Position numbers and translations under genes: made by a program
Notes under the pieces: model-generated
Told to the model about the DNA's origin: nothing
Database searches by the model: none
What the model saw: the letters and a program-made list of their open reading frames with translations, nothing else
Shown here: positions 2,214 through 20,072 of the stretch, one piece after another
Layout of the letters: each line of letters opens with the position of its first letter
Position numbering within the stretch: position 1 is the first letter of the stretch
From: a virus
Reading direction: 5' to 3' (one strand)
IMG/VR virus record: IMGVR_UViG_3300021364_000121
Location: 1-29,758 of that record
Length of the DNA stretch: 29,758 nt

Positions 2214-2263
2214 AAACAATTAAAAATGTATTAATAAATGTATATGAGTGTTTTCTAACAGTC

Positions 2264-2284
2264 TGTGGAAAAACTTGTGGATAA
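2264..2284 (-). promoter_or_regulatory. two adjacent DnaA boxes
   Basis: On the minus strand, 2276-2284 reads TTATCCACA, the perfect Escherichia coli-type DnaA box. Positions 2264-2272 read TTTTCCACA, reported as a preferred cyanobacterial DnaA box. Both have the same orientation with starts 12 bp apart, close to one helical turn. No other exact copy was noticed elsewhere in the window. Binding by host DnaA is inferred. Confidence 0.5.
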
Positions 2285-2336
2285 CCTTGACAGTTACTGT
2301 ATAGGGTCTTCAGAGTATCTTTACAGTCACTTTATG

Positions 2337-2415
2337 TCCTTCTAAATGTCTCATTGCATCCTTCTAAATGTCTCATATCCTGTCTCATTATGTCTCACTA
2401 AATGTCTCATATCCT
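2337..2415 (+). repeat. TGTCTCA direct-repeat (iteron-like) array
   Basis: Five TGTCTCA copies start at 2347, 2369, 2381, 2391 and 2403. Their spacings of 22, 12, 10 and 12 bp are near multiples of the helical repeat. Three belong to a longer unit, CTAAATGTCTCAT (2342-2354, 2364-2376, 2398-2410). An 18-nt perfect repeat links 2337-2354 with 2359-2376, and another links 2364-2381 with 2398-2415. Iterons or operator sites for a phage protein are both possible. Confidence 0.7.
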
Positions 2416-2449
2416 TGTGATCTAAGCGAGCATGATAACACGAACTCCC

Positions 2450-2505
2450 CAGAATTGTCAACACCCTCGGAGAAAAATCCCAGAACCCTGACATAAACAA
2501 TTCTG
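2450..2505 (+). repeat. 9-bp perfect inverted repeat
   Basis: CAGAATTGT (2450-2458) is the exact reverse complement of ACAATTCTG (2497-2505), separated by 38 nt containing CTCGGAG and CCCAGAACCC. It could form a cruciform or an RNA stem. No U-tract follows. Confidence 0.45.
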
Positions 2506-2555
2506 AAGTTTCGATTCTTATAGATAGTCTGTGGCAATCATTTATGAGTAAAGAG

Positions 2556-2584
2556 TTGACATAAGGACCGGAATGTTTTATACT
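2556..2584 (+). promoter_or_regulatory. sigma70-type early promoter
   Basis: TTGACA (2556-2561), a 17-nt spacer and TATACT (2579-2584) are near consensus for host primary sigma factor. Initiation is expected around 2591. This puts the ATG at 2573 upstream of the transcript start and supports translation of the next gene from 2615. Confidence 0.6.
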
Positions 2585-2614: not shown

Positions 2615-2782
2615 ATGCCTTACGCACAGAAATCAAAGTATCGCATCACTCTCGAAATTGAAGCATTGGATGACTTTAATCCTCATCAGATTAACTGGGA
2701 GAAGTTGTTTCAGTTAGATGGGAATGAGAGTGTAGAATGTTATATTGAAGATCTTTCAAGTAAGTATGACAATCTATGGTGA
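2615..2782 (+). CDS. small conserved cyanophage-type protein, 55 aa
   Basis: The product starts MPYAQKSKYRITLEIEALDD and continues with FNPHQINWEKLFQLDGNE and an acidic tail. The core D-x-F-N-P-x-Q-I-N-W-x-x-L-F resembles a short alpha/beta protein found repeatedly in T4-like cyanophages (recalled; function unknown). The frame is open to an ATG at 2573, but the -10 element at 2579-2584 overlaps that codon's neighbourhood, so the mRNA would begin after it. The ATG at 2615 also begins closer to the conserved block. It is the first gene after the candidate control region. Confidence 0.65.
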   Translation: MPYAQKSKYRITLEIEALDDFNPHQINWEKLFQLDGNESVECYIEDLSSKYDNLW

Positions 2783-5623: not shown

Positions 5624-7558
5624 ATGGCTATTACGCAATTTGCAAATCTAGACTTTGAAGATATTAAATCTTCAATTACAGACTACATTCGTGCAAACAC
5701 TGATTTCACGGATTATGATTATGAGGGATCGACATTATCTCTCATCATTGATATGCTTGCGTATAACACCTATACTGCGTCCTTCAACGCAAACATGGTG
5801 TCGAATGAGGCATTCCTAGATGGAGCAACTCTCAGAGAGAATGTAGTGTCTCTGGCTCGCAATATAGGGTATCTACCACGTCCTAAAACAGCAGCAAGAG
5901 CAAGAGTACGTTTCTCAGTCAATACAGAAAGTTTTCCAAATCAACCAAAATCAATCACCTTAAGAAAAGGATCAGTACTCTTAGCTACAGCACCCTTTGC
6001 AGCACAAAGTTTTACATTTTCAATTCCAGAAAGTGTCACAAGTCCTATCGTTGATGATGTTGTAACTTTTAATAGTCTCAACGTTTTTGAAGGTGTTTTA
6101 GTTGAAAAAGAATTTACTGTAGATACTTCAGAATTTGATCAAAGATTTATCTTAGAAAATTCAGGTATTGATTACACGACATTAAGAGTGAGAGTCAAGC
6201 AAAGTAGTTTAGTGAATGAATCAACTCCTTATAAATTGTCAGAATCTATCTTTGATATTGATGGATCTTCAAATGTGTACTTCATTCAAGAGATTGAAGA
6301 TGAAAGATATGAAATCATTTTTGGTGATGGTATTTTTGGTAGAAAATTAGATAATGGGAATGTCATTCAAATCAGTTATCTTGTAACGAATGGTGATCTT
6401 GGAAATAGAATGTCTACATTCAAATTTATTGGTAATTTGACAACCAATAATGATCAAATTGTAGATAGAGATATCTCACTTGTTCAGACACTTGTTCCTT
6501 CTACTGGTGGTTCTAAAATTGAATCCACACAATCAATTAAAAAATATGCAGGTAGAATATATGCAGCTCAGAATAGAGCAGTCACATCTGAAGACTATAG
6601 TACAATCATAAGAAAAATATATCCAGAAGCGGAATCATTAAACTCTTTTGGTGGAGAAGAACTTGATCCACCTCAATTTGGTAGAGTTTTTATTGCAATT
6701 AAACCAAGAGATGGTTTATTTTTATCTAGATCAATCAAAGAAAATATAAAAAGAGAATTAAGAAAGTATTCAATTGCTGGAATTGTTCCAGAAATCATTG
6801 ACACTAAATTGATGTATATTGAGGTTTCTTCTGTAGTTTATTATAATCCAAACAAAGCAACGAGTGCAGATTCTGTTAGAAATTCGGTGATTACTAATTT
6901 AAATTCATTTTCTCTGAGTGAGGAATTGAATTCTTATGGATCTAGATTTAAGTTTTCAAAATTGACGGCAATGATCGATCAATCAGATGCTGCAATTACA
7001 TCAAATATGACAAAAATTCAAATACGAAGAGATTTAAGAACTATTGTGAATAGACTTGCTGAATATGAATTGTGTTTTGGAAATTCCTTTAAAATAGAGA
7101 GTTTTGAAGGTGGTAATATTAGATCAAGTTCATTTGCGGTATCTGGATTAAATTTTGAGGTTTATTTGAGTGATGTTCCTATTTCTGACGAAGAAGGTGA
7201 AGTAGTTTTGATTAGAAGACCTTCTGGGTCTGAGATTGATACAGGTGAACTTAATATTGTGAGAAGATCAGTTGGATCTGTAAATTACTTGACAGGAGAG
7301 ATTAAATTATTTGCGATAAATATAACATCTACTGCTCTTCCTCAAAATATAATTCAAATATCATCTACACCAAAATCAAATGATGTTATAGGTTTACAAG
7401 ATCTTTATCTCCAATTAGACCCCACATATAGTCAAATTGACATGCTCATTGATAATGTCGAATCTGGTGCAGATCCCACAGGATCTAGATTTTTATTTCC
7501 CGAAGAAACTAGACCAATAATTCGCAAAATATATCCACCACTTGTACAAAATGTCTGA
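5624..7558 (+). CDS. 6: baseplate wedge protein gp6
   Basis: gp6 forms the inner ring that links the six wedges and holds gp25, gp53 and gp7. The 644 residues compare with 660 in T4. The N-terminal block FTDYDYEGS (28-36), LAYNTY (45-50), an E-A-F-L helix and GYLP (82-85) aligns with T4 gp6 (FLDYDFEGS, LAYNT, NGYLP). The baseplate J-like core continues with FGDGIFG at about 236-243, then R-A-V-T-S-E-D-Y near 320 and F-I-A-I-K-P-R-D-G-L near 355-365, all with counterparts in T4. The ATG abuts the gp25 stop, and the gp6 stop overlaps the giant gp7-like gene by 8 nt. No anomalies are seen. Confidence 0.95.
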   Translation: MAITQFANLDFEDIKSSITDYIRANTDFTDYDYEGSTLSLIIDMLAYNTYTASFNANMVSNEAFLDGATLRENVVSLARNIGYLPRPKTAARARVRFSVNTESFPNQPKSITLRKGSVLLATAPFAAQSFTFSIPESVTSPIVDDVVTFNSLNVFEGVLVEKEFTVDTSEFDQRFILENSGIDYTTLRVRVKQSSLVNESTPYKLSESIFDIDGSSNVYFIQEIEDERYEIIFGDGIFGRKLDNGNVIQISYLVTNGDLGNRMSTFKFIGNLTTNNDQIVDRDISLVQTLVPSTGGSKIESTQSIKKYAGRIYAAQNRAVTSEDYSTIIRKIYPEAESLNSFGGEELDPPQFGRVFIAIKPRDGLFLSRSIKENIKRELRKYSIAGIVPEIIDTKLMYIEVSSVVYYNPNKATSADSVRNSVITNLNSFSLSEELNSYGSRFKFSKLTAMIDQSDAAITSNMTKIQIRRDLRTIVNRLAEYELCFGNSFKIESFEGGNIRSSSFAVSGLNFEVYLSDVPISDEEGEVVLIRRPSGSEIDTGELNIVRRSVGSVNYLTGEIKLFAINITSTALPQNIIQISSTPKSNDVIGLQDLYLQLDPTYSQIDMLIDNVESGADPTGSRFLFPEETRPIIRKIYPPLVQNV

Positions 7559-10500
7559 TCAAACTAGGATTAAAATCTCTCAAGTTCTGGAATCTCAAAT
7601 TCCAGATTTTGTCAATGATGAATTTCCACTTTTTAAAGATTTTTTAAAGCAATATTTTGAATCATTAGAAATTGATGGTGGAGCATATAATTTACTTCAA
7701 AATATTGATAGGCATATTAAATTAGATTTTCAACTTTCAATACCAGAAAATACAGAATCTGTAGAAGATTTTCTGATTGGTGATGATGTATTGAGTGTTG
7801 AAAGTACAAAAGGATTTCCAACATCATATGGTCTATTAAAAATTGATGATGAAATTATCACATACACATCCAAAACTGATAATGAATTTTTGGGTTGTAT
7901 AAGAGGATTTTCTGGTGTTAGTGAATATGAAGATTCTTTAATTTTTTCCAAAACTGGACCTCAAAACCATAATGTAACAACAGTAGTAAATTTAAGTGGA
8001 TTATTATTTGAAGAATTTTATAAAAAATTAAAAAAACAAATTTTACCGGGTTTTGAAGATAGAGAACTAGATCAATCAGTAAATAAAAGAGCATTTCTAA
8101 AAAATTCTAGAGATCTTTATACTACTAAGGGATCTGACAGATCTTTTAAAATTTTGTTTGGCGCATTATATGGTGCTAAAGTTGATGTAATTCGACCATC
8201 AGATTTTCTTTTTGAACCATCTGCCAGTCAATCTAGAAGAACTAGAGATTTAGTATTATCTACTTTTGATGATACTATTGATTATACCGATTTAATTCTT
8301 AATAGAACACTTTATCAGAGAGAAAAAAATAGTTCGGATAGCACTGATCCAATTATTGCATATGCTCCGATTACTAAAGTAGAAAGATTTTTCGACAAAA
8401 CAAAATATTACTATAGAGTTAGCTTAGATATTGAATCTAGTCGTGGTGGTTTCTCTTCTGGATCAGTTTTTGGTGATTTTGAAACGACTCAAACAACCAT
8501 GTTGGTAGAAGACCATGTTGAAAATTTAGATGGTTCTTTTGATGATGTCCTCTATGTAGATTCTACTGTTGATTTTGATGCAAATGATAGTCTAGATGTA
8601 TACCTCGATAGTGGTTTAGTCGAAATTTCATATGTTGGTAAATCTGTTAATGAATTTTATGCAGTTGATAGTGCAGACTTTACTATTCCGAGAGGAACTC
8701 TTGTTAGTACTAAAAAATATGCCTATGTTGAACTTGAAGATGATAGTGTATTTTTTAGAGTTACAAATGTAATTTCAGATATTATTGATCCAGTAGGTTC
8801 TAATTTTGAAGAAAATCAATCATTAATATTCGATTCTTTAGGATTAAAAAATTACTCACCAAAGGTTAATCAATGGAGATTTAATGTTGCTGCGAAATAT
8901 AACTTAGAATCTATTTCTCTATTGAGTAAAGTAAATAGGCAATATTCGATAAAACTGGAGAGTGACTTTGATCTAAGTTTAAAAGATAAATTATTTTTAC
9001 AAACCAGTACTAATGAATCATATAATGCAACCATTTCTTCAAGAGATAGTTCTGATACTTATATTATTACAACCGAAACTATCATTCCCGACTTTGATAG
9101 AACTGGTTTAACTAAATTAACAAATAAAACATATACTAAAAAGTTTTTTATTGAAAGAAAATTAAATAAGGGAAATATTAAAAATTTTCCAGAGACGAAA
9201 AAATATCTTTCTGACGTTCAGAATACCTATAAGAGAAGAACTTTAAAAGATAGTTGCTTCGTAATGAGTTCTTCAATTCCAAATTATTCAAATGAAGAAC
9301 TTCCTGTAGATCTTAACAAGATAGTATTTTCTACAAACATTTCTTCTGATTCAATTAATACAATTTTAAATGTTGGACAAGATGCATCACCAACCCAATC
9401 AGAAATAACACACTCCTTTTATACTGGTGATGCTATTGTATATTTTGAAGATACTTCTTCAGACAATTTAAACAGATTAAACATAGAAAATGGTAGATAT
9501 TTTGTAACGGTAGTTGATAAGAAGAATATTAGATTATCGACTAGCTTGACTAATGTATACAAAAAGGTATATGTTAATATTACCGGAAATGTAACTGATA
9601 ACACTTTTTATTATGTAGATCCTTTTGATATTCAAAAAGTACTTGATGAGGAAAATCCATTTGTTTTATCATCAAAAAGAATTGTAAAAAAATTAGGTGT
9701 ACCAATTGATGGTGATAATCCAGAAACTATTCCTGGAAAAATTGGTATTCTTAATAATGGAGTAGAAATACTTAACTATAAATCAACATCAAATTTAAAG
9801 TATGGTCCAATTGCAAAAATAAATGTTTTAGGTTCTGGTGATCTTGAATATGATGTAATTAATCCACCAGAATTGAAAATTTTTGATGGAGATACTGCAG
9901 ATGGAATTAATAATGGTGGTATAGGTGCAACTGCTAATGTTAATCTCTCTGGATCAGTTAGAGAAATACTAATTCTTGATGGTGGATATAATTATCAAGA
10001 TACACCAACAGTTAAAGTTTTTGGTGGTGGTGGATCTTTATGTGAAGCTACTCCTATAATGGAGACTTATCGTCATTCAGTAGAAATAAATTCTGAAGAT
10101 GGTGATCAAGTTGGTATAACATCAAATTTATTTACTTTAGACTATGACCACCTGTTTAAATCAGGAGAAGAGGTCATCTATAAGTTTTTTGGAGACACTT
10201 TAATTGGTGGATTAGAAAATAATACTGTATATTATGTTGGTGTTGAAAGTCCTAGCAGTTTTAAATTATACACGGATCCGTTTGAAGCAGCTAATTTTGT
10301 AAATCCAGTAGAATTGACTGATTTTGGTCTTGGAATTTCTGTAATCGAGGCAACACAAAACAAGAAAAGAATTTCCAAAATTAATATTGATTTTTCTTCC
10401 GATGATTTTAAGAATAGAAGAGTTTCTTTTAATTCTGAAAAATCACCAAATTCAATTGACTTATATACAAATGAAATTACAATTCCAAATCATGGGTTTA

Positions 10501-13500
10501 ATGATCAGGATTTGATTGTGTATGATGCTGTAGATGAACCAATTTTAGGATTGTCTAGTGGACAAGCATATGTTGTAACAGCTAAAGATCTAGACACATT
10601 TTTATTATCATCGGCAGACACTGATGATGATTTTAATCCTTTGAGTGATAAAGAGGAATTTTTCGAGGAAGAATATGTAGATTTATTTAATGTTGGTAGT
10701 GGAGATCAAATTTTTAGATCTCTAACCATTGGTGTATCTGTTGAAAGTGAGGAAGATCCATCATTAATCGTTGAACCTCAACTTCTTCCAATAGTTAGAG
10801 GTCAAATTACAGATGTTTTCTTACAAGATGGTGGTGTTGGTTATGGATGTACTAACATTTTTAATTTTGATAGACCTCCTATTGTAACAGCTGAACCAGG
10901 AAAATTAGCTTCAGTAAAACCATACATTATAGATGGGGAAATTAAAAATGTAATTATTCAAAATGTTGGTCAAGGATATGTTTCTCAACCAACTATTAGA
11001 ATTATTACAGATGACGATAGTGGTTTTGGTGCTGAATTAATACCAGTAATAGAAAATGGTTCTTTGATTGATGTTTTTGTTAAAAGTGGCGGATTTAATT
11101 ATAACGATGCAACCAGACTTGAAGTTCTTTCTGCTGGAAAAGAAGCTACTTTTAACGTAGAAATATATGAATGGAATATTAACAATGTTGAAAGAAACTT
11201 TTCCACTAATCAAATTTATAGTGATGATGGATTTTTATATCAAGACTCCACAGTTGATAAACTAACTTCTGAAGAATATGGAATATTGCAATACACTGCA
11301 CTATATGCTCCTAGAAAACTCAGAGAGACCATTTATAATAAATCTACCATAAATGGAAGAGATGTTTATAATCCAGATTTATTAAAAGACACTTTGGGGA
11401 ATGAAAAAGAATCAACACATCATTCACCAATAATTGGATGGGCTTATGATGGAAATCCAATTTATGGTCCATATGGATATGTAAATGCAGATGGAACTGG
11501 TGGTATAAAGAGAATTCTTTCCGGATACAAAAAAACAACTCTAAAAAATAGACCATCTTTAATAGATTATCCATTAGGTTTCTTTACTAATGATTTTAAA
11601 TGGACAAGTAATGGAGATTTGGATGAATATAATGGTAGATTTTGCATAACACCAGAATATCCAACTGGAGTTTATGCATATTTTGCAACTATTGGAGAAA
11701 ATTCTTCCCGGTTCTCAAATTATAAAGAACCAGCTTTTCCATATTTTATTGGAAACAAATTTAAATCTTCACCTATAGATTTTAATTTTGATTCTTCTAT
11801 AGATCAAGAAAATTTCACCTCATTTTTTAGTGATTCACTAGATAAACTTTCAAATACCGATTTACTAAGAAATATTGTTCCTTATAATTTATCTTCTCAA
11901 TATGGATCATATCCATATATTTTTAACTCAGAAACGAATAAAAATATAAAACCAAAAATTAAAAAAACAACTTTAGGTAATCTTAGTAGTATTGATATAG
12001 TTTCTGCTGGTGAAAATTATAAAGTTAATGATAGAATAATTTTTGATGATAAGTCTGGAGAACAAAGACCTTTAGCGGAAGTTGTTAGTATTGCAAATAC
12101 AAATGTATCTCAAATCTCTTTAGCAACATCTTCTATTAGTAATGTAGAGTTAAAAAGAGTTTTTCTTAGAGCAGATGCAGTTTCTTATATTGGATATACA
12201 ACTATTCCTCATAATTTGACTAATGGGCCTTTAAAAATTGACGAAACTGAAAGAAATAATAGTTATATTTCAGATATTACTATAAAACCAAGGACTTTAT
12301 CTTTAAATGCTGGGATAGGAATAACCGGGCAAACTGGTATAGTCACTTATATTTCAATATTTAATAAAAATATTGATGATGTTAAAGAGAATGATATTTT
12401 TAGTTTATCATCTGGCGATTTTAAAGAAGAAATAAAAGTTCTTAATGTTGATCTAAACCAAAATAGAATGAGAGTTCAAAGAAATTTTGGTGGAACTATT
12501 GGAACTAGTTATTCTGCTGGACAGAAATTAGTTGAAAATCCAAGAGTTTTTATAGTAAATGATGCATCTGATTCTGAAATTGATACTGAGCTTACCAAGT
12601 TAAATAGACAATTTTATTTTAATCCCAAAGAATCGGTGGGAGTTGGTATTGGAACTACAGTTAGTATAGAAAATCCAGGTTCTGGAAGTATAAGTAGATT
12701 TATTAATGAGGATAGAATTTATATTCCAAATAATGGTCTTAATATAAATGATGTGGTCAGATATGATTTTGATGATGAAGCAATTTCTGTAAAATCTATC
12801 GCAAATGAATTTAATTTACAAAAAAACTTTAGATATTTTGTATATCCATTTGATGAAAATCATATTGGTCTATCTACAAATCCAATTGGAGTTGGAACTA
12901 CTGGAGTTGTTGGTTTAGGAACTACAAGTACTAGCGTATTATTAACATTTAATGATTTTGGTTCTGGTGATAATCATAGTTTTAATACCGAATTTATAAA
13001 TGTCAATAAAGCAGAAATTTCTCGATTTGAAGCAACCGTAACCACAGAGGAAGATCATAATTTAATAGTAACAGATACTGTAACCGTAGATTGTGTTCCA
13101 AATACAGAAAAAGTCGTTGATATTCTTTATAATGATACATTTAGTAAGTTTACTGCTGGAACTTTAAAATTCACTAGTAATGATGTCGATACTGCCAATT
13201 CTATAATCACAATTAATAATCATGATCTTGATACTGGGCAAACTGTAATTTATATTGCAGGTGAAGAACCTCCGGGTACTCTTTTAGATAATACTCTTTA
13301 TGTTGTTATAGTAATAGATTCAAACAAAATAATTTTGATTGATAGGGACAAAGATTTTACAAACTTGTTACCTATTGAAGATATGAAGAATTGTAGGGTA
13401 ACAATAGATGAACCAACTTTTGGTGAAATTAGACCAATAAATCCGCCAGTATTTTTAAAGAGAAATCAAACTTTAGTTTTTGATGTTTCCGATAACTCAC

Positions 13501-16500
13501 TATCATATTCTAAGGGCAATGTCAGATATCCAGCATTTGCTTTAGAATTTTATACGGATAGTGAATTTAAAAATAGATTTCTTTCAACTAAAACTCCGTT
13601 CAAGTTTAATGTAGTCGAAACGGGAATATTAGGTGTTGATACTAATGCTACAGTTAAATTGATTTGCGATGATTTTATTCCAGATATATTATTCTATAAC
13701 TTAGTTCCGTTAAAACATGATGAGGTTCCGGCATCATATTCTTCTATAAAATTAGATGATGATATATATTCTTCAATTGTTATTGAAGGAAGTTCTTATT
13801 CTGGAACATATAAGGTAGTATCAAAAACAGATAAAACATTTAGTTATCATATTCCAGATTTTAATGATGAAAGTGATATTTTTACAAATTCTAACGCAGA
13901 AATTTCATATTCAACAATTTCAACATATCCTTCAGGTCCAATAGATCTTGTTAAAATACTCTCTAGAGGAAAAAATTTATATAGAATACCTGAAATTTTA
14001 AGTATTGATAGTGAAGAAGGTAAAAATGCTATTTTATCTCCAAAAAGCAGTAGTATTGGCATCATCAAAGATATTGGAGTTGAACATATTGGGTTTGATT
14101 TCCCCACAGATTATACTTTATCTCCAAGAGCACATGCGCCAACTATAATTAAAATTGAAGAAATGTCTTCTATAGTTGGTATTGCTGTTACTCATCCAGG
14201 AAAAAATTATACAGTTCTTCCTGATTTAGTAGTTATTGATGGAGTTACCAAAAAAGTTGTAGAAGACATTGATTTGAATTATGTTTTTGAAGAAATATTC
14301 AAAGTCGATATAATTAGAAGTTTAGGAAAAATTAATAATGTTACACCAACAATAATACCAATTAATAATACCAATGGTTATAAAATAAAATCATTAACTT
14401 ATGATAATAATACTAAGGATGCGACAGTAGTTTTAGATACTGTTGGTTTTAGTGCTATTACTGCCTGGCCATTTATAAATGGATCTAAATTTTTAATAGA
14501 AGGAGTTTTGTTAAAAAGCACAAATAGTGGTGAAAAAGGTTTTAATAGTGAAAATTACGAATATAATTTATTTGAAGTAAAGACAAATGATCCAAATATT
14601 GGTGGGCAACTTCCATCATTTACATTTAATATGGAAAAATTTGTTGGTAATAATTCTCCAGGTGAATTTGATGAAACATTTGCAACTGCAAGAGTAATAC
14701 CAGAATCATATTTCCCCAAATTTTCAATTGACTTTGTTAGAGATATTTTTCTATTCCATGAAGAGATATCCAATGGAATTCTTAAAGATAAATGTGTTGG
14801 ATACGATTTCAACAATTCAATAATAAAAATATCTACAAATTCGCCTTATGAATATCAAATTGGACAAGAAATAACTGGAAAAACATCAAAGTCTAAAGCA
14901 AAAATATCTGAAATTGTTGGAATAAGCACATTTACATATGAAATTTCTTCATCTAGTGAAGTAAATAAAAAACCATTTAGTAAAAAAGGTGTTTTAAACG
15001 AAGATTCTCAGAGATTGCATGATAGTGATTATTATCAGTATTTTTCATATGTATTAAAATCTAATGTTGGTATTAGTAGTTGGAATGATCCTGTAGATTC
15101 TATATTACATCCAGTTGGAATGAAAAAATTTGGCAATTTGCAAGTTGAATCAGTATCAGTAAACTCTGAGATGGTGGGAATTCAATCTGAAAGTGGATTT
15201 TTGGGAATTACTAATGTCATATCAGAATATGATTTAAATTGCATTCCCGATATTGATATAGTGACTGAAAATAATGTTAAAAACATTTATTCAGATGAAA
15301 TTAGATTTAATTCACTAATTCTTCAGGATTATCTTGAATCGGTAGGAAATCGTGTTCTTTTAGTTGATGACATTAGTGGTGAATTTAATAGCAATCCTAG
15401 ATTAACCGCTTTTTCAACCATTGATACTTTTAGTCTCAAATCACAAAGATCTAAAAAATATGTTTTAGTTACTGCTGATAAGAAATTTCCAGGAGAAAGG
15501 CAAATAATTATAGTAAATGTTATTCATAACAATATTTACGGATATTTGTCTCAGTATGGTAGAGTAGAGACTGATTTTGTTCATGGATATTTTGATATTG
15601 GTATTTTTGAGCAAAATGGTTTATTATTATTCTACCCGGTTGATCCTAGATTTGATGATTTCTCGATAAGTGGGTATCAATATGCTATTGAAGAAGCAAA
15701 AGTAGGAGTTTCTACTCAGTATGTTGGTGATATTGCATCAATTGGTATTCAAACAGTAACAGTTCCAACTGGAACTAACTCTGCATATAAAATTGTTGGA
15801 ATAGATTCTTCATATTCATCTTCAAAAGTAGTTTTATCTATTGAAAAAACGGATTTGCAGTATTATCAATATGATGAATTCAATATTATTCATAATGGAA
15901 CAGATATTTTAAGCACAGAATATGGTAAATTAACTACGGATACCTTTGATCTTGATGTTTCTGAGGGAATTGGAACATATCAGTTCTCATATAATGGAAA
16001 TGATATTGAAATTAGCTTAGTTCCAAATTCTGGATTAACGACTGATTATTATATCAGTGCTACTGTAGTTTCTATTTCAGACACTTCAAGAGTTTCAACT
16101 GGAACTAGTGATTATCAAACAACATTAACAACTGTTGGTTTTGGAAGCACTAGTGTTGGAAGTGCTACTACATCAATTCAAATAGTAGAATTTGATTCTC
16201 AATTTACAGGTTTTAATATTTACGCAAGTATTGAAGATATTACCAATAATATTGTTCAATTTTCCGAATTGACGATGGTTCATGATAATACTGAGGTATT
16301 TCTTTCCGAATTTGGAAGAATTGTCACAAATGATGCTTATGATGATACTGGAATAGGAACTTTTACTTCTTACATAGATTCAATTAGCAATAAAACTCAA
16401 ATTTATTTTGAACCTCTAGCTACTGAAGTATCAGAACCAAATAAAGAGATTGAAGTTAGATTATTTGTCAATGCACTAAAACCAGTTGATTTAGGAATCT

Positions 16501-19500
16501 CTACCACTAATCTCAACTTTGATCGTGGTCAATTTTCTATTCTTTATGGAGATTATACAGGAACTGAAAATGATATTAAGAGATCTTTTGAATTAAGACA
16601 TCAAGGTGATTTAATTTTTGAAAGAGTATTTGATTCAACTTCAATTGGTACGGTTGTTTCCACTGAAGAAAATGTATTAAATCTATCAAACCATTTCTTT
16701 GTTACTGGTGAGAAAGTAACTTATACATATCCAGCAGGTAGTCAACCAATCGGAATTGCTACAACTACTCTTGCTGGAGTTGGAACTACAACACATCTCC
16801 CACCAACATTATATGTAGTGGCAAATGACAATAATAGTATCTCATTCACTGACAGTTCGGAGAATGCACTTAAATTTAGACCAGATGTAAAAATTACTTT
16901 AACATCTGCCGGAGTTGGAACACAGCATAAACTTACTGCAACAAATAAAGATACCAAGGGTATATTTACAATTGATAATATGTTGCAATCTCCGATTCAA
17001 AAGATGGATATTTCCACTACACTTGATGATGATATTGCATTACCAGATACTCTGATTAACACTGCAGGAATTACTTCAATTTTCTCCGGTGATATCATTA
17101 AAATTAATGATGAGTTTATGCTAGTAGAAACTGTTGGAATTGGAACACTTGATAAAATTAGAGTTAGGAGACCTTGGTTAGGAACTGAACTTGGAATTCA
17201 CACCACAGGTGATAGTGTTACAAAAATGACTGGTGATTATGTAATTGTAGGATCCGTAATCAACTTTACATCTGCTCCTTATGGTAAAGTTCCCGTTACT
17301 GTTGATGTAAATCAGTTTGGTGTTCCATTTATTGATCCGAATGATAGAGATTTTACTGGAATTACCACAAATTCTTCTTTCCATGGAAGAACTTTCATGA
17401 GATCTGGTGATCATACATTAAACGAAACTTATAGTAAAAATTATCTTTTCGATGATATTTCTTCAAGATTTACTGGAATTAGATCAGAATTTCCACTGAC
17501 TGTTGAAGGAACAAATGTAACTGGAATATCTACAGACAATGCAATTGTATTGGTTAATAATATATTTCAACAACCATCAAGATCTGGTGTAAAATCAATA
17601 ACTGGAAATTATACTCTTGAAGAAGATGGTGGAGAAACTACAATAGTATTCAATCCAAGCACATTAACTCCAGGAGAAGATATTAATACTAGTGATTTAC
17701 CAGTTAATGGTGTTATTGTCACTATTGGATCTACAAATGGTCTTGGATATCAACCATGTGTTGCTGCTGGAGGAACTGCAACAGTTTCTGGATTGGGTTC
17801 TATTACTAGTATTAGTATAGGAAATAGTGGTTCTGGTTATAGATCAGGAATTCAAACACATATCAATGTGAAAGCAGTTACTTCATCTTCAGTATCTATA
17901 ATTGGATATGCAACTGCATCTAATGGAAATATTACTGGTGTTGCAATTACAAATCCAGGAATAGGATACACTACAACAAGTTTGCCAGAAATTGTATTTG
18001 ATGCTCCAATAGGATATACAAATATTCCATTAATTTATTCCAATGATTCTGTTCAGGGAATAGGAACAAAGGCATCTATTGATATGTTTGTTAGTAGAGA
18101 CACCTCTATTGCAGAATTTAAGTTTAATAATAATGGATATGCGTATGGTCAAGGTGAAATATTAACGGTTGCTATAGGTGGAACAACTGGAATTCCTACC
18201 GATACGAGTAAAACATTTAATGAATTCCAGATAACTGTTGAAAGAACTTACTCAGATGATTTTTCTTCTTGGTCTGTGGGACAATTCCAACAACTTGATA
18301 CATTTGACAGTCAGTTTGATGGTATTAAGAAAGTTTTCTCACTCGCATCTCAAGGAAATAGATTATCAATTAGAGCTCGAGCTGGAAGTAATATTGATGT
18401 TGACTCAACTTTGTTAATTTTTATTAATGATGTTCTTCAAATTCCCGGACAATCTTATACTGTTAGAGGTGGTGGTTTAGTTGTATTTGATGAACCTATT
18501 CCTGAAGATTATACTTCTAGAATTTTGTTCTATAAGGGAACAAGAGATATTGATGTTATTGATGTAGATATTATTGAACCAGTAGAACCTGGTGATATAC
18601 TTACAATAAACTCTAATGATATTAATAAAAAGCAAAATAGTAGAACAACTGAAGAGTTACTAGCTTCTGATATTGTACTCACAAGTCCTTATCGTGGACC
18701 CGGAAGATCTAATGATGAAAGTCATGAAAGACCAGTAACTCTTTGTAAGCAGACTGAGGACATATTCTTATATGGAATTTCCGAAACTAAAGATAGAAAA
18801 TCATTAGAACCTATAATTAATCCAACTACCAATTTAATTCAAAATGTTGGTATAGGAACCACTATAAACTATGCTTGGGTTGAATCTCTAAAACCATCAT
18901 TTGATAATGCTTTAGAAAATCAAACTGCAAAAAAACTTGGAACAATTGAAATAATCTCTCAAGATATTACTCAAACAGGTTTTGCTTCTGCTAGAGTCTC
19001 TTCTTCCGGTACTATTACTGAAATTACTATTACAAATGCTGGTGCAGGTTATACAAATAATCCACAGATTTCTATTGCTTCACCTGGAGTTGGAAATACT
19101 ATAGCCATAGCAACATGCTTAGTTACTAGTGGTATTATTACGAATATAACCGTAACAAATAGTGGATTTGGATATACAAGTACAAAACCACCACAAGTTC
19201 TCATCGAACCTCCGGCAGTAAAAAGAGAGATTATTGAAAATGTTGTATATGAAGGTGATTCTGGACATATTGTTTCTATTTCAAATACTTCTGTTGGAGT
19301 TGGAACGACAGCACTTCTATTGGGATTATACATTCCTTTCGATTCTTTCTTAAGAAATAGCAATGTAAATAGTAGTTCTTTTGATGGGTGGAGTGGTATT
19401 AAAACTGATTATTTCTTCTCTTGCAGTAATACAAATGTTGTTGGAACATATGTTACAACCCTCAATAATCAAGGCGAAACTTTAAGTATATCTACTTCAG

Positions 19501-20072
19501 GAATGAATGCTATTTTCCAGGTGGCAGATATTGAAAGAAAAACTGAATATATTACCGGAATAGGATTAACTCAAGTTCTAGAAGTTACAACTTATATTGA
19601 AAATGAGATAGATTTAGATGATGAATTGGTATCTTTCGACAGTGATCAATATACTTTTGATTCTGATTTATATAACTTTGATAGAACTGGTTTTATATCT
19701 AATAATTTTCATGGATCATTCTCTTGGGGCAAAATAAATTGGAGTCCTTTGAAGAGTAGAAGAAAACCAACTTCATTTGATTCTTATCATTTATCTGGTT
19801 ATTCTGGAATATCTTCTTCTCCAGTGGTACGCAGAGTAAATCCACTAAAATCTGATCTATATACGAAGTTCTCTAATGTTGCAAGAGACTTCCTATTTGT
19901 AACTTTTGATAGTAATAAGATTACATTTGATTCCACTGTGTTTAGTTTCGACTCTGGTTCAAATTCAACATTCTTCAACGTTGAAAATGATTTCACCTTT
20001 GGAACCTCTGAAGTCAATTTTGACACTAATTTATACACTGCCGATTCAAAATTAACACTTGTAAATAATTGA
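7551..20072 (+). CDS. giant gp7-like baseplate wedge protein, 4,173 aa
   Basis: It lies in the T4 gene 7 position, overlapping the gp6 stop; ATG at 7551 is preferred to TTG at 7542. Residues 17-55 (IPDFVNDEFPLFKDFLKQYF to QNIDRH) and 190-214 (YTTKG, then SFKILFGALYGAKVDV) align with the C-terminal third of T4 gp7 (DFYSTKG, YKFLFKVLYNEEVEI). Residues 2494-2523 (YYQYFSYVLKSN then W, then HPVG at 2520-2523) align with a block about 150 residues later in T4 gp7. About 2,280 residues are therefore inserted between them, and some 1,650 follow. The insertions hold repeated beta modules, a YHYH-type domain (1290-1380), nine or more GxGY repeats and C-terminal FDS heptads. T4 gp7 has 1,032 residues, and its first ~700 are not recognisable here. 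A role as the wedge backbone carrying peripheral fibres is inferred; the gene could instead be only positionally analogous. Confidence 0.85.
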   Translation: MSDQTRIKISQVLESQIPDFVNDEFPLFKDFLKQYFESLEIDGGAYNLLQNIDRHIKLDFQLSIPENTESVEDFLIGDDVLSVESTKGFPTSYGLLKIDDEIITYTSKTDNEFLGCIRGFSGVSEYEDSLIFSKTGPQNHNVTTVVNLSGLLFEEFYKKLKKQILPGFEDRELDQSVNKRAFLKNSRDLYTTKGSDRSFKILFGALYGAKVDVIRPSDFLFEPSASQSRRTRDLVLSTFDDTIDYTDLILNRTLYQREKNSSDSTDPIIAYAPITKVERFFDKTKYYYRVSLDIESSRGGFSSGSVFGDFETTQTTMLVEDHVENLDGSFDDVLYVDSTVDFDANDSLDVYLDSGLVEISYVGKSVNEFYAVDSADFTIPRGTLVSTKKYAYVELEDDSVFFRVTNVISDIIDPVGSNFEENQSLIFDSLGLKNYSPKVNQWRFNVAAKYNLESISLLSKVNRQYSIKLESDFDLSLKDKLFLQTSTNESYNATISSRDSSDTYIITTETIIPDFDRTGLTKLTNKTYTKKFFIERKLNKGNIKNFPETKKYLSDVQNTYKRRTLKDSCFVMSSSIPNYSNEELPVDLNKIVFSTNISSDSINTILNVGQDASPTQSEITHSFYTGDAIVYFEDTSSDNLNRLNIENGRYFVTVVDKKNIRLSTSLTNVYKKVYVNITGNVTDNTFYYVDPFDIQKVLDEENPFVLSSKRIVKKLGVPIDGDNPETIPGKIGILNNGVEILNYKSTSNLKYGPIAKINVLGSGDLEYDVINPPELKIFDGDTADGINNGGIGATANVNLSGSVREILILDGGYNYQDTPTVKVFGGGGSLCEATPIMETYRHSVEINSEDGDQVGITSNLFTLDYDHLFKSGEEVIYKFFGDTLIGGLENNTVYYVGVESPSSFKLYTDPFEAANFVNPVELTDFGLGISVIEATQNKKRISKINIDFSSDDFKNRRVSFNSEKSPNSIDLYTNEITIPNHGFNDQDLIVYDAVDEPILGLSSGQAYVVTAKDLDTFLLSSADTDDDFNPLSDKEEFFEEEYVDLFNVGSGDQIFRSLTIGVSVESEEDPSLIVEPQLLPIVRGQITDVFLQDGGVGYGCTNIFNFDRPPIVTAEPGKLASVKPYIIDGEIKNVIIQNVGQGYVSQPTIRIITDDDSGFGAELIPVIENGSLIDVFVKSGGFNYNDATRLEVLSAGKEATFNVEIYEWNINNVERNFSTNQIYSDDGFLYQDSTVDKLTSEEYGILQYTALYAPRKLRETIYNKSTINGRDVYNPDLLKDTLGNEKESTHHSPIIGWAYDGNPIYGPYGYVNADGTGGIKRILSGYKKTTLKNRPSLIDYPLGFFTNDFKWTSNGDLDEYNGRFCITPEYPTGVYAYFATIGENSSRFSNYKEPAFPYFIGNKFKSSPIDFNFDSSIDQENFTSFFSDSLDKLSNTDLLRNIVPYNLSSQYGSYPYIFNSETNKNIKPKIKKTTLGNLSSIDIVSAGENYKVNDRIIFDDKSGEQRPLAEVVSIANTNVSQISLATSSISNVELKRVFLRADAVSYIGYTTIPHNLTNGPLKIDETERNNSYISDITIKPRTLSLNAGIGITGQTGIVTYISIFNKNIDDVKENDIFSLSSGDFKEEIKVLNVDLNQNRMRVQRNFGGTIGTSYSAGQKLVENPRVFIVNDASDSEIDTELTKLNRQFYFNPKESVGVGIGTTVSIENPGSGSISRFINEDRIYIPNNGLNINDVVRYDFDDEAISVKSIANEFNLQKNFRYFVYPFDENHIGLSTNPIGVGTTGVVGLGTTSTSVLLTFNDFGSGDNHSFNTEFINVNKAEISRFEATVTTEEDHNLIVTDTVTVDCVPNTEKVVDILYNDTFSKFTAGTLKFTSNDVDTANSIITINNHDLDTGQTVIYIAGEEPPGTLLDNTLYVVIVIDSNKIILIDRDKDFTNLLPIEDMKNCRVTIDEPTFGEIRPINPPVFLKRNQTLVFDVSDNSLSYSKGNVRYPAFALEFYTDSEFKNRFLSTKTPFKFNVVETGILGVDTNATVKLICDDFIPDILFYNLVPLKHDEVPASYSSIKLDDDIYSSIVIEGSSYSGTYKVVSKTDKTFSYHIPDFNDESDIFTNSNAEISYSTISTYPSGPIDLVKILSRGKNLYRIPEILSIDSEEGKNAILSPKSSSIGIIKDIGVEHIGFDFPTDYTLSPRAHAPTIIKIEEMSSIVGIAVTHPGKNYTVLPDLVVIDGVTKKVVEDIDLNYVFEEIFKVDIIRSLGKINNVTPTIIPINNTNGYKIKSLTYDNNTKDATVVLDTVGFSAITAWPFINGSKFLIEGVLLKSTNSGEKGFNSENYEYNLFEVKTNDPNIGGQLPSFTFNMEKFVGNNSPGEFDETFATARVIPESYFPKFSIDFVRDIFLFHEEISNGILKDKCVGYDFNNSIIKISTNSPYEYQIGQEITGKTSKSKAKISEIVGISTFTYEISSSSEVNKKPFSKKGVLNEDSQRLHDSDYYQYFSYVLKSNVGISSWNDPVDSILHPVGMKKFGNLQVESVSVNSEMVGIQSESGFLGITNVISEYDLNCIPDIDIVTENNVKNIYSDEIRFNSLILQDYLESVGNRVLLVDDISGEFNSNPRLTAFSTIDTFSLKSQRSKKYVLVTADKKFPGERQIIIVNVIHNNIYGYLSQYGRVETDFVHGYFDIGIFEQNGLLLFYPVDPRFDDFSISGYQYAIEEAKVGVSTQYVGDIASIGIQTVTVPTGTNSAYKIVGIDSSYSSSKVVLSIEKTDLQYYQYDEFNIIHNGTDILSTEYGKLTTDTFDLDVSEGIGTYQFSYNGNDIEISLVPNSGLTTDYYISATVVSISDTSRVSTGTSDYQTTLTTVGFGSTSVGSATTSIQIVEFDSQFTGFNIYASIEDITNNIVQFSELTMVHDNTEVFLSEFGRIVTNDAYDDTGIGTFTSYIDSISNKTQIYFEPLATEVSEPNKEIEVRLFVNALKPVDLGISTTNLNFDRGQFSILYGDYTGTENDIKRSFELRHQGDLIFERVFDSTSIGTVVSTEENVLNLSNHFFVTGEKVTYTYPAGSQPIGIATTTLAGVGTTTHLPPTLYVVANDNNSISFTDSSENALKFRPDVKITLTSAGVGTQHKLTATNKDTKGIFTIDNMLQSPIQKMDISTTLDDDIALPDTLINTAGITSIFSGDIIKINDEFMLVETVGIGTLDKIRVRRPWLGTELGIHTTGDSVTKMTGDYVIVGSVINFTSAPYGKVPVTVDVNQFGVPFIDPNDRDFTGITTNSSFHGRTFMRSGDHTLNETYSKNYLFDDISSRFTGIRSEFPLTVEGTNVTGISTDNAIVLVNNIFQQPSRSGVKSITGNYTLEEDGGETTIVFNPSTLTPGEDINTSDLPVNGVIVTIGSTNGLGYQPCVAAGGTATVSGLGSITSISIGNSGSGYRSGIQTHINVKAVTSSSVSIIGYATASNGNITGVAITNPGIGYTTTSLPEIVFDAPIGYTNIPLIYSNDSVQGIGTKASIDMFVSRDTSIAEFKFNNNGYAYGQGEILTVAIGGTTGIPTDTSKTFNEFQITVERTYSDDFSSWSVGQFQQLDTFDSQFDGIKKVFSLASQGNRLSIRARAGSNIDVDSTLLIFINDVLQIPGQSYTVRGGGLVVFDEPIPEDYTSRILFYKGTRDIDVIDVDIIEPVEPGDILTINSNDINKKQNSRTTEELLASDIVLTSPYRGPGRSNDESHERPVTLCKQTEDIFLYGISETKDRKSLEPIINPTTNLIQNVGIGTTINYAWVESLKPSFDNALENQTAKKLGTIEIISQDITQTGFASARVSSSGTITEITITNAGAGYTNNPQISIASPGVGNTIAIATCLVTSGIITNITVTNSGFGYTSTKPPQVLIEPPAVKREIIENVVYEGDSGHIVSISNTSVGVGTTALLLGLYIPFDSFLRNSNVNSSSFDGWSGIKTDYFFSCSNTNVVGTYVTTLNNQGETLSISTSGMNAIFQVADIERKTEYITGIGLTQVLEVTTYIENEIDLDDELVSFDSDQYTFDSDLYNFDRTGFISNNFHGSFSWGKINWSPLKSRRKPTSFDSYHLSGYSGISSSPVVRRVNPLKSDLYTKFSNVARDFLFVTFDSNKITFDSTVFSFDSGSNSTFFNVENDFTFGTSEVNFDTNLYTADSKLTLVNN
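9402..16900 (+). repeat. six diverged copies of an 'xNHGxxxGxxVxY ... YYVxxxD' module in the giant protein
   Basis: Six copies begin near residues 618, 864, 976, 1723, 1885 and 3042. Each has a strand ending in a His or Asn turn (PNHGF, PNNGL, NNHDL, SNHFF), then G-x-x-V-x-Y, a variable loop, a (Y)YV or YVV strand, a D/S-x-x-x-F/I-x-L strand, and often G-x-G-x-x-H at the end. The copies share pattern rather than close sequence, implying old duplication. Probably a beta-sandwich module. The span given covers the first to the last copy. Confidence 0.6.
9960..19230 (+). repeat. scattered 'GxGYxxxPxxxI' repeats in the giant protein
   Basis: Short repeats of the form I-x-x-I-x-I-x-x-x-G-x-G-Y-x-x-x-P-x-x-x-I occur at least nine times. 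Examples are DGGYNYQDTPTVKV (about 815), NVGQGYVSQPTIRI (about 1140), PGKNYTVLPDLVVI (about 2220), SGSGYRSG (3426), PGIGYTTT (3469), AGAGYTNN (3830) and SGFGYTST (3871). They often come in tandem pairs about 40 residues apart. The pattern also occurs once in gp8. It is probably a two-strand beta unit. Confidence 0.65.
19635..20072 (+). repeat. C-terminal FDS heptad repeats of the giant protein
   Basis: The final 145 residues contain 7-residue units starting FDS or FDx: 4029, 4036, 4043 (FDSDQYT, FDSDLYN, FDRTG), then 4119, 4126, 4133 (FDSNKIT, FDSTVFS, FDSGS), then 4157 and a degenerate 4164. The exact 7-residue period with Asp-Ser at each turn suggests stacked short strands. Confidence 0.7.

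Follow-up and report, generated by a model that had tools for sequence, protein, structure and literature searches.

The non-coding gap at positions 2214 to about 2614 of a Synechococcus phage genome fragment holds DnaA-type boxes, repeats, A+T-rich DNA and two divergent promoter sequences. By sequence comparison, its boxes and repeats are the local form of an element that is found across the Kyanoviridae, upstream of gp25-gp6. That the element is real and conserved is practically certain. We consider it a probable origin of replication, whichever kind of initiator (host or phage) would act there. The narrower reading, of an early and probably the main origin of marine T4-like cyanophages in which a transcription-primed start is combined with host DnaA boxes, has in our judgement an even chance of being correct.

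Genomic context of the element

The DNA analysed (hereafter the window) is a 29,758-base fragment from IMG/VR that belongs to a T4-like phage of Synechococcus, its nearest public relative being S-SCSM1 (Kyanoviridae). The left part of the window consists of small genes with no assigned function, and baseplate genes lie further right (gp25-like from 5216, gp6-like from 5624). Within the baseplate cluster, positions 7542-20072 encode a 4176-aa protein with a YHYH domain (PF14240), inside which the GC content falls to ~0.28. A preliminary description of the window had delimited a non-coding gap at 2214-2572. The gap is indeed non-coding, but its right limit more probably lies at about 2614 (~400 bp in all), because relatives share a start, ATGCCTTACGC, equivalent to ATG 2615 rather than to position 2573 where the listed reading frame began, and because a promoter overlaps 2573. 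Intergenic gaps in S-PM2d have a median length of 6 bp (PMC5931967). The features of the gap and its border are the following:

2197-2246, no strand assigned: A+T-rich DNA, the least stable in the stability profile and a candidate unwinding element, with the conserved motif ATTAAAAATGTATTAATAAATGTATA at 2219-2244
2264-2272, minus strand: DnaA-type box TTTTCCACA, an exact match to the cyanobacterial consensus, enriched in relatives
2276-2284, minus strand: DnaA-type box TTATCCACA, an exact match, 12 bp from the first box
2286-2412, no strand assigned: degenerate iteron-like repeat array with a period of ~10-12 bp, which includes five TGTCTCA; relatives have phased repeats here
2415-2432, minus strand: the part of the core that varies least (plus strand: TTGTGATCTAAGCGAGCA), covering the -10 end, discriminator and initially transcribed region
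2432-2461, minus strand: predicted leftward sigma70-type promoter, TTGACA (2461-2456), 18-bp spacer, extended -10 TGT-TATCAT (2437-2432)
2556-2584, plus strand: predicted rightward sigma70-type promoter, TTGACA-N17-TATACT
2615-2782, plus strand: small downstream gene (phrog_12516), with its start moved from 2573 to 2615

The distance between the element and gp25, to its right, is 2.8-7.5 kb in those records of which the flanks were read; in syn9, S-SCSM1 and S-SM2, the element is found between the helicase (uvsW) gene and gp25. Short reading frames annotated across this non-coding element (S-SM2 SSM2_086, syn9 gp86, Syn1_073 and 074) are probably spurious. Several IMG/VR contigs (L158, L162, L194, L257, L261 and L263) begin or end in or beside the element, as if assembly breaks at the repeat array.

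A conserved core resembling a leftward promoter

The best conserved part of the element, overlooked in the preliminary description, is a core at 2415-2461 that is promoter-like on the minus strand. Relatives have in common the sequence TTGTGATCTNNGCGNGCA, followed ~20-30 nt on by TGTCAA, which reads TTGACA when reversed. A scan with the core pattern gave at least 119 stretches, among which some of the matches listed are chance ones without the TGTCAA part; when both parts are required, at least 99 elements are retained, at least 57 of them distinct at 85% identity. On the minus strand, type-A elements read TTGACA (or TTGACT, or TTGCCA), 17-18 bp, then TANNNT, usually with TG one base before; type-B elements keep a 17-bp spacing and have a weaker -10, TAAGMC. 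A script fitted a promoter at 16-18 bp spacing to 93 of the 99 elements, and the other six, several of them at contig edges, fit by eye. The -35 is 19, 22, 23 or 25 bp from the core in nearly all elements, while the -10 spacing stays at 17-18. Moreover, the last T of the -10 is present in 11/11 elements of the 19-bp class versus 37/72 where that base is free (P = 0.002, uncorrected for relatedness). We are highly confident that the core is a promoter, and leftward transcription would be expected to start at about 2425.

A profile built from the core yields a single significant hit per record in seven whole records, with syn9 and S-PM2 carrying divergent type-B cores; since the profile was trained on elements from some of these records, the result supports a single copy per genome and is not an independent discovery. 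An RNA stem in the core (TTGTGAT...ATCAC) was considered and set aside, as its left arm is fixed by the collection method and its right arm is lost in type-B cores, which leaves covariation uninformative.

The predicted leftward transcript would run through the array, the boxes and then the A+T-rich DNA at 2197-2246, antisense to plus-strand genes. At the sequence level, the element has a promoter-like sequence aimed into A+T-rich DNA, as in origins of the T4 oriF type. No intrinsic terminator is found between 2000 and 3000, leftward reading frames are mostly short, and Rfam returns a single chance-level match, which lies outside the element. On the other side of the core, a rightward promoter similar to that at 2556-2584 is present downstream in 72 of 93 related elements, compared with 33 of 1674 control windows.

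Two conserved divergent promoters are also what one would expect of a divergent early-promoter region at which no replication starts: the rightward promoter would serve early genes, the leftward one would give rise to an RNA with an antisense or regulatory role, and DnaA or another factor would use the boxes and repeats as operators. Antisense RNA is known elsewhere in cyanophages (CfrI near psbA). In addition, the GC-skew shift put forward earlier as a sign of an origin is absent, in that the skew does not switch consistently at the element in the seven whole records, although coding-strand bias may mask one. However, the predicted leftward RNA is no more structured than shuffles in 4/5 cases and is poorly conserved past its first ~30 nt, and a promoter region leaves unexplained why consensus DnaA boxes and an A+T-rich block occur with it at one place per genome. 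We regard this explanation as rather unlikely, yet it is the strongest competitor of an origin.

DnaA-type boxes in the window and in related phages

TTWTCCACA is found on the minus strand at 2264-2272 and 2276-2284 and nowhere else in the window, which confirms the two same-orientation boxes 12 bp apart that had been described. Their number is ordinary (2 versus 0.95 expected; two or more in 30 of 100 shuffles). What is unusual is their adjacency, the window's only two boxes being 3 bp apart within one non-coding gap. Most cyanobacteria have TTTTCCACA as their DnaA-box consensus (PMC4674748). As for the conservation of boxes and repeats, S-SCSM1 and close IMG/VR relatives keep the first box, but the exact second box is degenerate in them (TGTGGAGAA or TGTGGAATA on the plus strand) and TGTCTCA is changed.

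The related elements were gathered via the core, independently of the boxes. TGTGGAWAA reaches a density of 3.74 per kb within 250 bp to the left of the core, and it is near zero elsewhere; at least one copy is present in 35/76 elements and at least two in 26/76, compared with 0.35% and 0% of the control windows (n=1441). Among the words listed, the most enriched 9-mer is TGTGGAAAA, found in 31 of 72 non-redundant elements and in 2 of 2449 control windows. Boxes are preferentially spaced by 12, 20-22 and 42 bp, and the 12-bp spacing of the window recurs in other phages. By their distribution, the DnaA-type boxes are a family-level, position-specific feature, beyond chance, and they are likely to bind DnaA.

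Whole genomes were searched for strict pairs other than diverging ones (TGTGGA...TCCACA). Such pairs occur at the element in 12 of 22 marine cyanomyovirus genomes, a biased rate since most genomes were chosen because they resemble the window, syn9 or S-PM2. The one extra place is in S-RIM32 (KU594606 61859-61880), ~1 kb downstream of its element. The whole genomes of T4, Microcystis phage Ma-LMM01, P-SSM2, P-SSM4, P-HM1 and S-RSM4 contain no strict pair, and neither do the reversed-pattern controls. A 15-base pattern for the boxes proved too loose when 2 mismatches were allowed. Each genome has 0-3 strict boxes at the element, and about half of the elements have none; DnaA can hence not be strictly required in all members. 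In the literature searched, no report of DnaA boxes in marine cyanomyoviruses was found, which is weak evidence given its limited coverage.

Consensus-strength boxes in a lytic phage might also be decoys that titrate host DnaA, as the preliminary description had suggested, and that would in this way stop the host's replication. The low number of strict boxes per genome makes this less likely, and titration would not call for their placement at a single site, next to a promoter core and phased repeats. We consider such decoys highly improbable.

Two annotations at or near the element deserve mention. In S-PM2 (AJ630128 19177-19333, corresponding to L351 10178-10334), a tRNA-Asn and a tRNA-Leu are annotated over the boxes and the core; this annotation looks misplaced because ARAGORN finds no tRNA in L351 8000-11000. 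In S-SCSM2R, a gene for a DNA-adenine methylase (PQ898602 48084-48983) is located ~5 kb away from the element, the core of which contains GATC.

Phased repeats and A+T-rich DNA

The five TGTCTCA repeats reported before are present at 2347, 2369, 2381, 2391 and 2403 (spacings 22, 12, 10 and 12). Repeats also reach to the left of these copies, to ~2286, a part that had been overlooked. In the 200 bp left of the core, exact 7-mer repeats in relatives fall at distances of 11-12, 21, 33-34, 42 and 56 bp and are rare in between; 7-mer repeats here are ~10 times denser than in control windows. The relatives thus show the evenly spaced short direct repeats by which iteron origins are recognised. The sequence of the repeats differs between phages while their phase is kept, as would be expected if proteins bind along one face of the helix. 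The 9-bp inverted repeat (2450-2458 / 2497-2505) is also borne out, with 9/9 positions complementary, and overlaps the -35 region of the leftward promoter.

The A/T-rich neighbour of the boxes is likewise found as described: the least stable 50-mer of 2150-2650 begins at 2197 and stands at the 99.9th percentile of the window. This A+T-rich candidate unwinding region lies beside the boxes, 18 bp from the first, as is expected of an oriC. In the 72 non-redundant elements, many of the other 9-mers enriched left of the core are pieces of a conserved A+T-rich motif, approximately AAAAATGTATTAAAAAA.

Repeats that vary between phages with their phase kept are consistent with an origin in which an initiator encoded by the phage, instead of host DnaA, binds the boxes and repeats. 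About half of the elements are without strict boxes, and the neighbouring phage proteins, for which no function is recognised, leave room for such an initiator. Nevertheless, the box is the DnaA consensus of the host phylum, and its 12-bp tandem arrangement is that of cyanobacterial dnaA-dnaN intervals. A phage initiator is accordingly improbable in our estimate, though less so than decoy sites.

Comparison with known origins

The boxes have counterparts in the host phylum. The box pair of Syn1 and S-CAM1, reverse complemented, is identical to a 21-mer, TTTTCCACAGGTTTTTCCACA, in the dnaA-dnaN interval of three cyanobacterial genomes. The phage element and cyanobacterial oriC share TTTTCCACA boxes in the same 12-bp tandem arrangement. 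The cluster of consensus boxes typical of oriC is found in the window and, as strict pairs, in the 12 genomes above, and is lacking in about half of the elements. Unlike oriC, the phage element has no adjoining dnaA or dnaN, fewer boxes and a dedicated leftward promoter.

T4 oriF, or ori(uvsY), an R-loop origin, is annotated in the same interval between uvsW and gene 25 as the cyanophage element. This is moderate, suggestive evidence, since T4 has ~1 kb between the two genes and these cyanophages have ~8-24 kb. T4 oriF pairs a MotA middle promoter with an A+T-rich unwinding element in the transcript path (PMC3016281), and the cyanophage element also has a promoter with A+T-rich DNA in its transcript path. 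However, the T4 origin is MotA-dependent whereas the cyanophage promoter is of the sigma70/TTGACA type, and cyanomyoviruses are without motA (PMC2984593). The cyanophage element further adds boxes and phased repeats, T4 having no box pair, and the window's A+T-rich block is separated from the leftward start by ~180 bp, a greater distance than in T4. Another T4 origin, oriE, combines 12-nt iterons with an early promoter (PMC3016281); it differs in its genomic place, and no DnaA boxes are reported for it. Finally, a single theta origin has been predicted for Syn9 (Weigele et al. 2007, cited in PMC2984593). Like our candidate, it is a single origin proposed for a cyanomyovirus.

A possible mode of initiation and its meaning

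The origin proposed in the preliminary description is upheld in part. Its boxes hold at the level of the family and its iteron-like repeats are helically phased, whereas exact conservation of the second box and of TGTCTCA, and a switch in GC skew, are not seen.

As a tentative model, which we hold to be somewhat less probable than its failure, we propose a hybrid origin that host DnaA opens and an antisense sigma70 transcript primes, in place of the MotA-dependent R-loop origin that T4 has in the same interval. In the reading given an even chance above, host sigma70 RNA polymerase would fire the leftward core promoter soon after infection, and the resulting non-coding antisense transcript would cross the phased array, then the boxes, and enter the A+T-rich block. 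DnaA of the host, on the TTTTCCACA boxes, would help to open this block. The leftward RNA might then stay hybridised, as an R-loop, or be cut, in either case priming leading-strand synthesis, after which the phage replisome would take over. The second promoter would drive early genes rightward.

Where replication starts in the abundant marine cyanomyoviruses, and by what means, is unsettled, as the single theta origin of Syn9 is only predicted and the MotA-dependent mechanism of T4 is inapplicable unchanged. The element provides a short, single-locus and testable origin candidate that many cultured phages carry. Should these phages use host DnaA, their replication would be tied to the initiator of the host, with a bearing on how infection relates to host growth and light.
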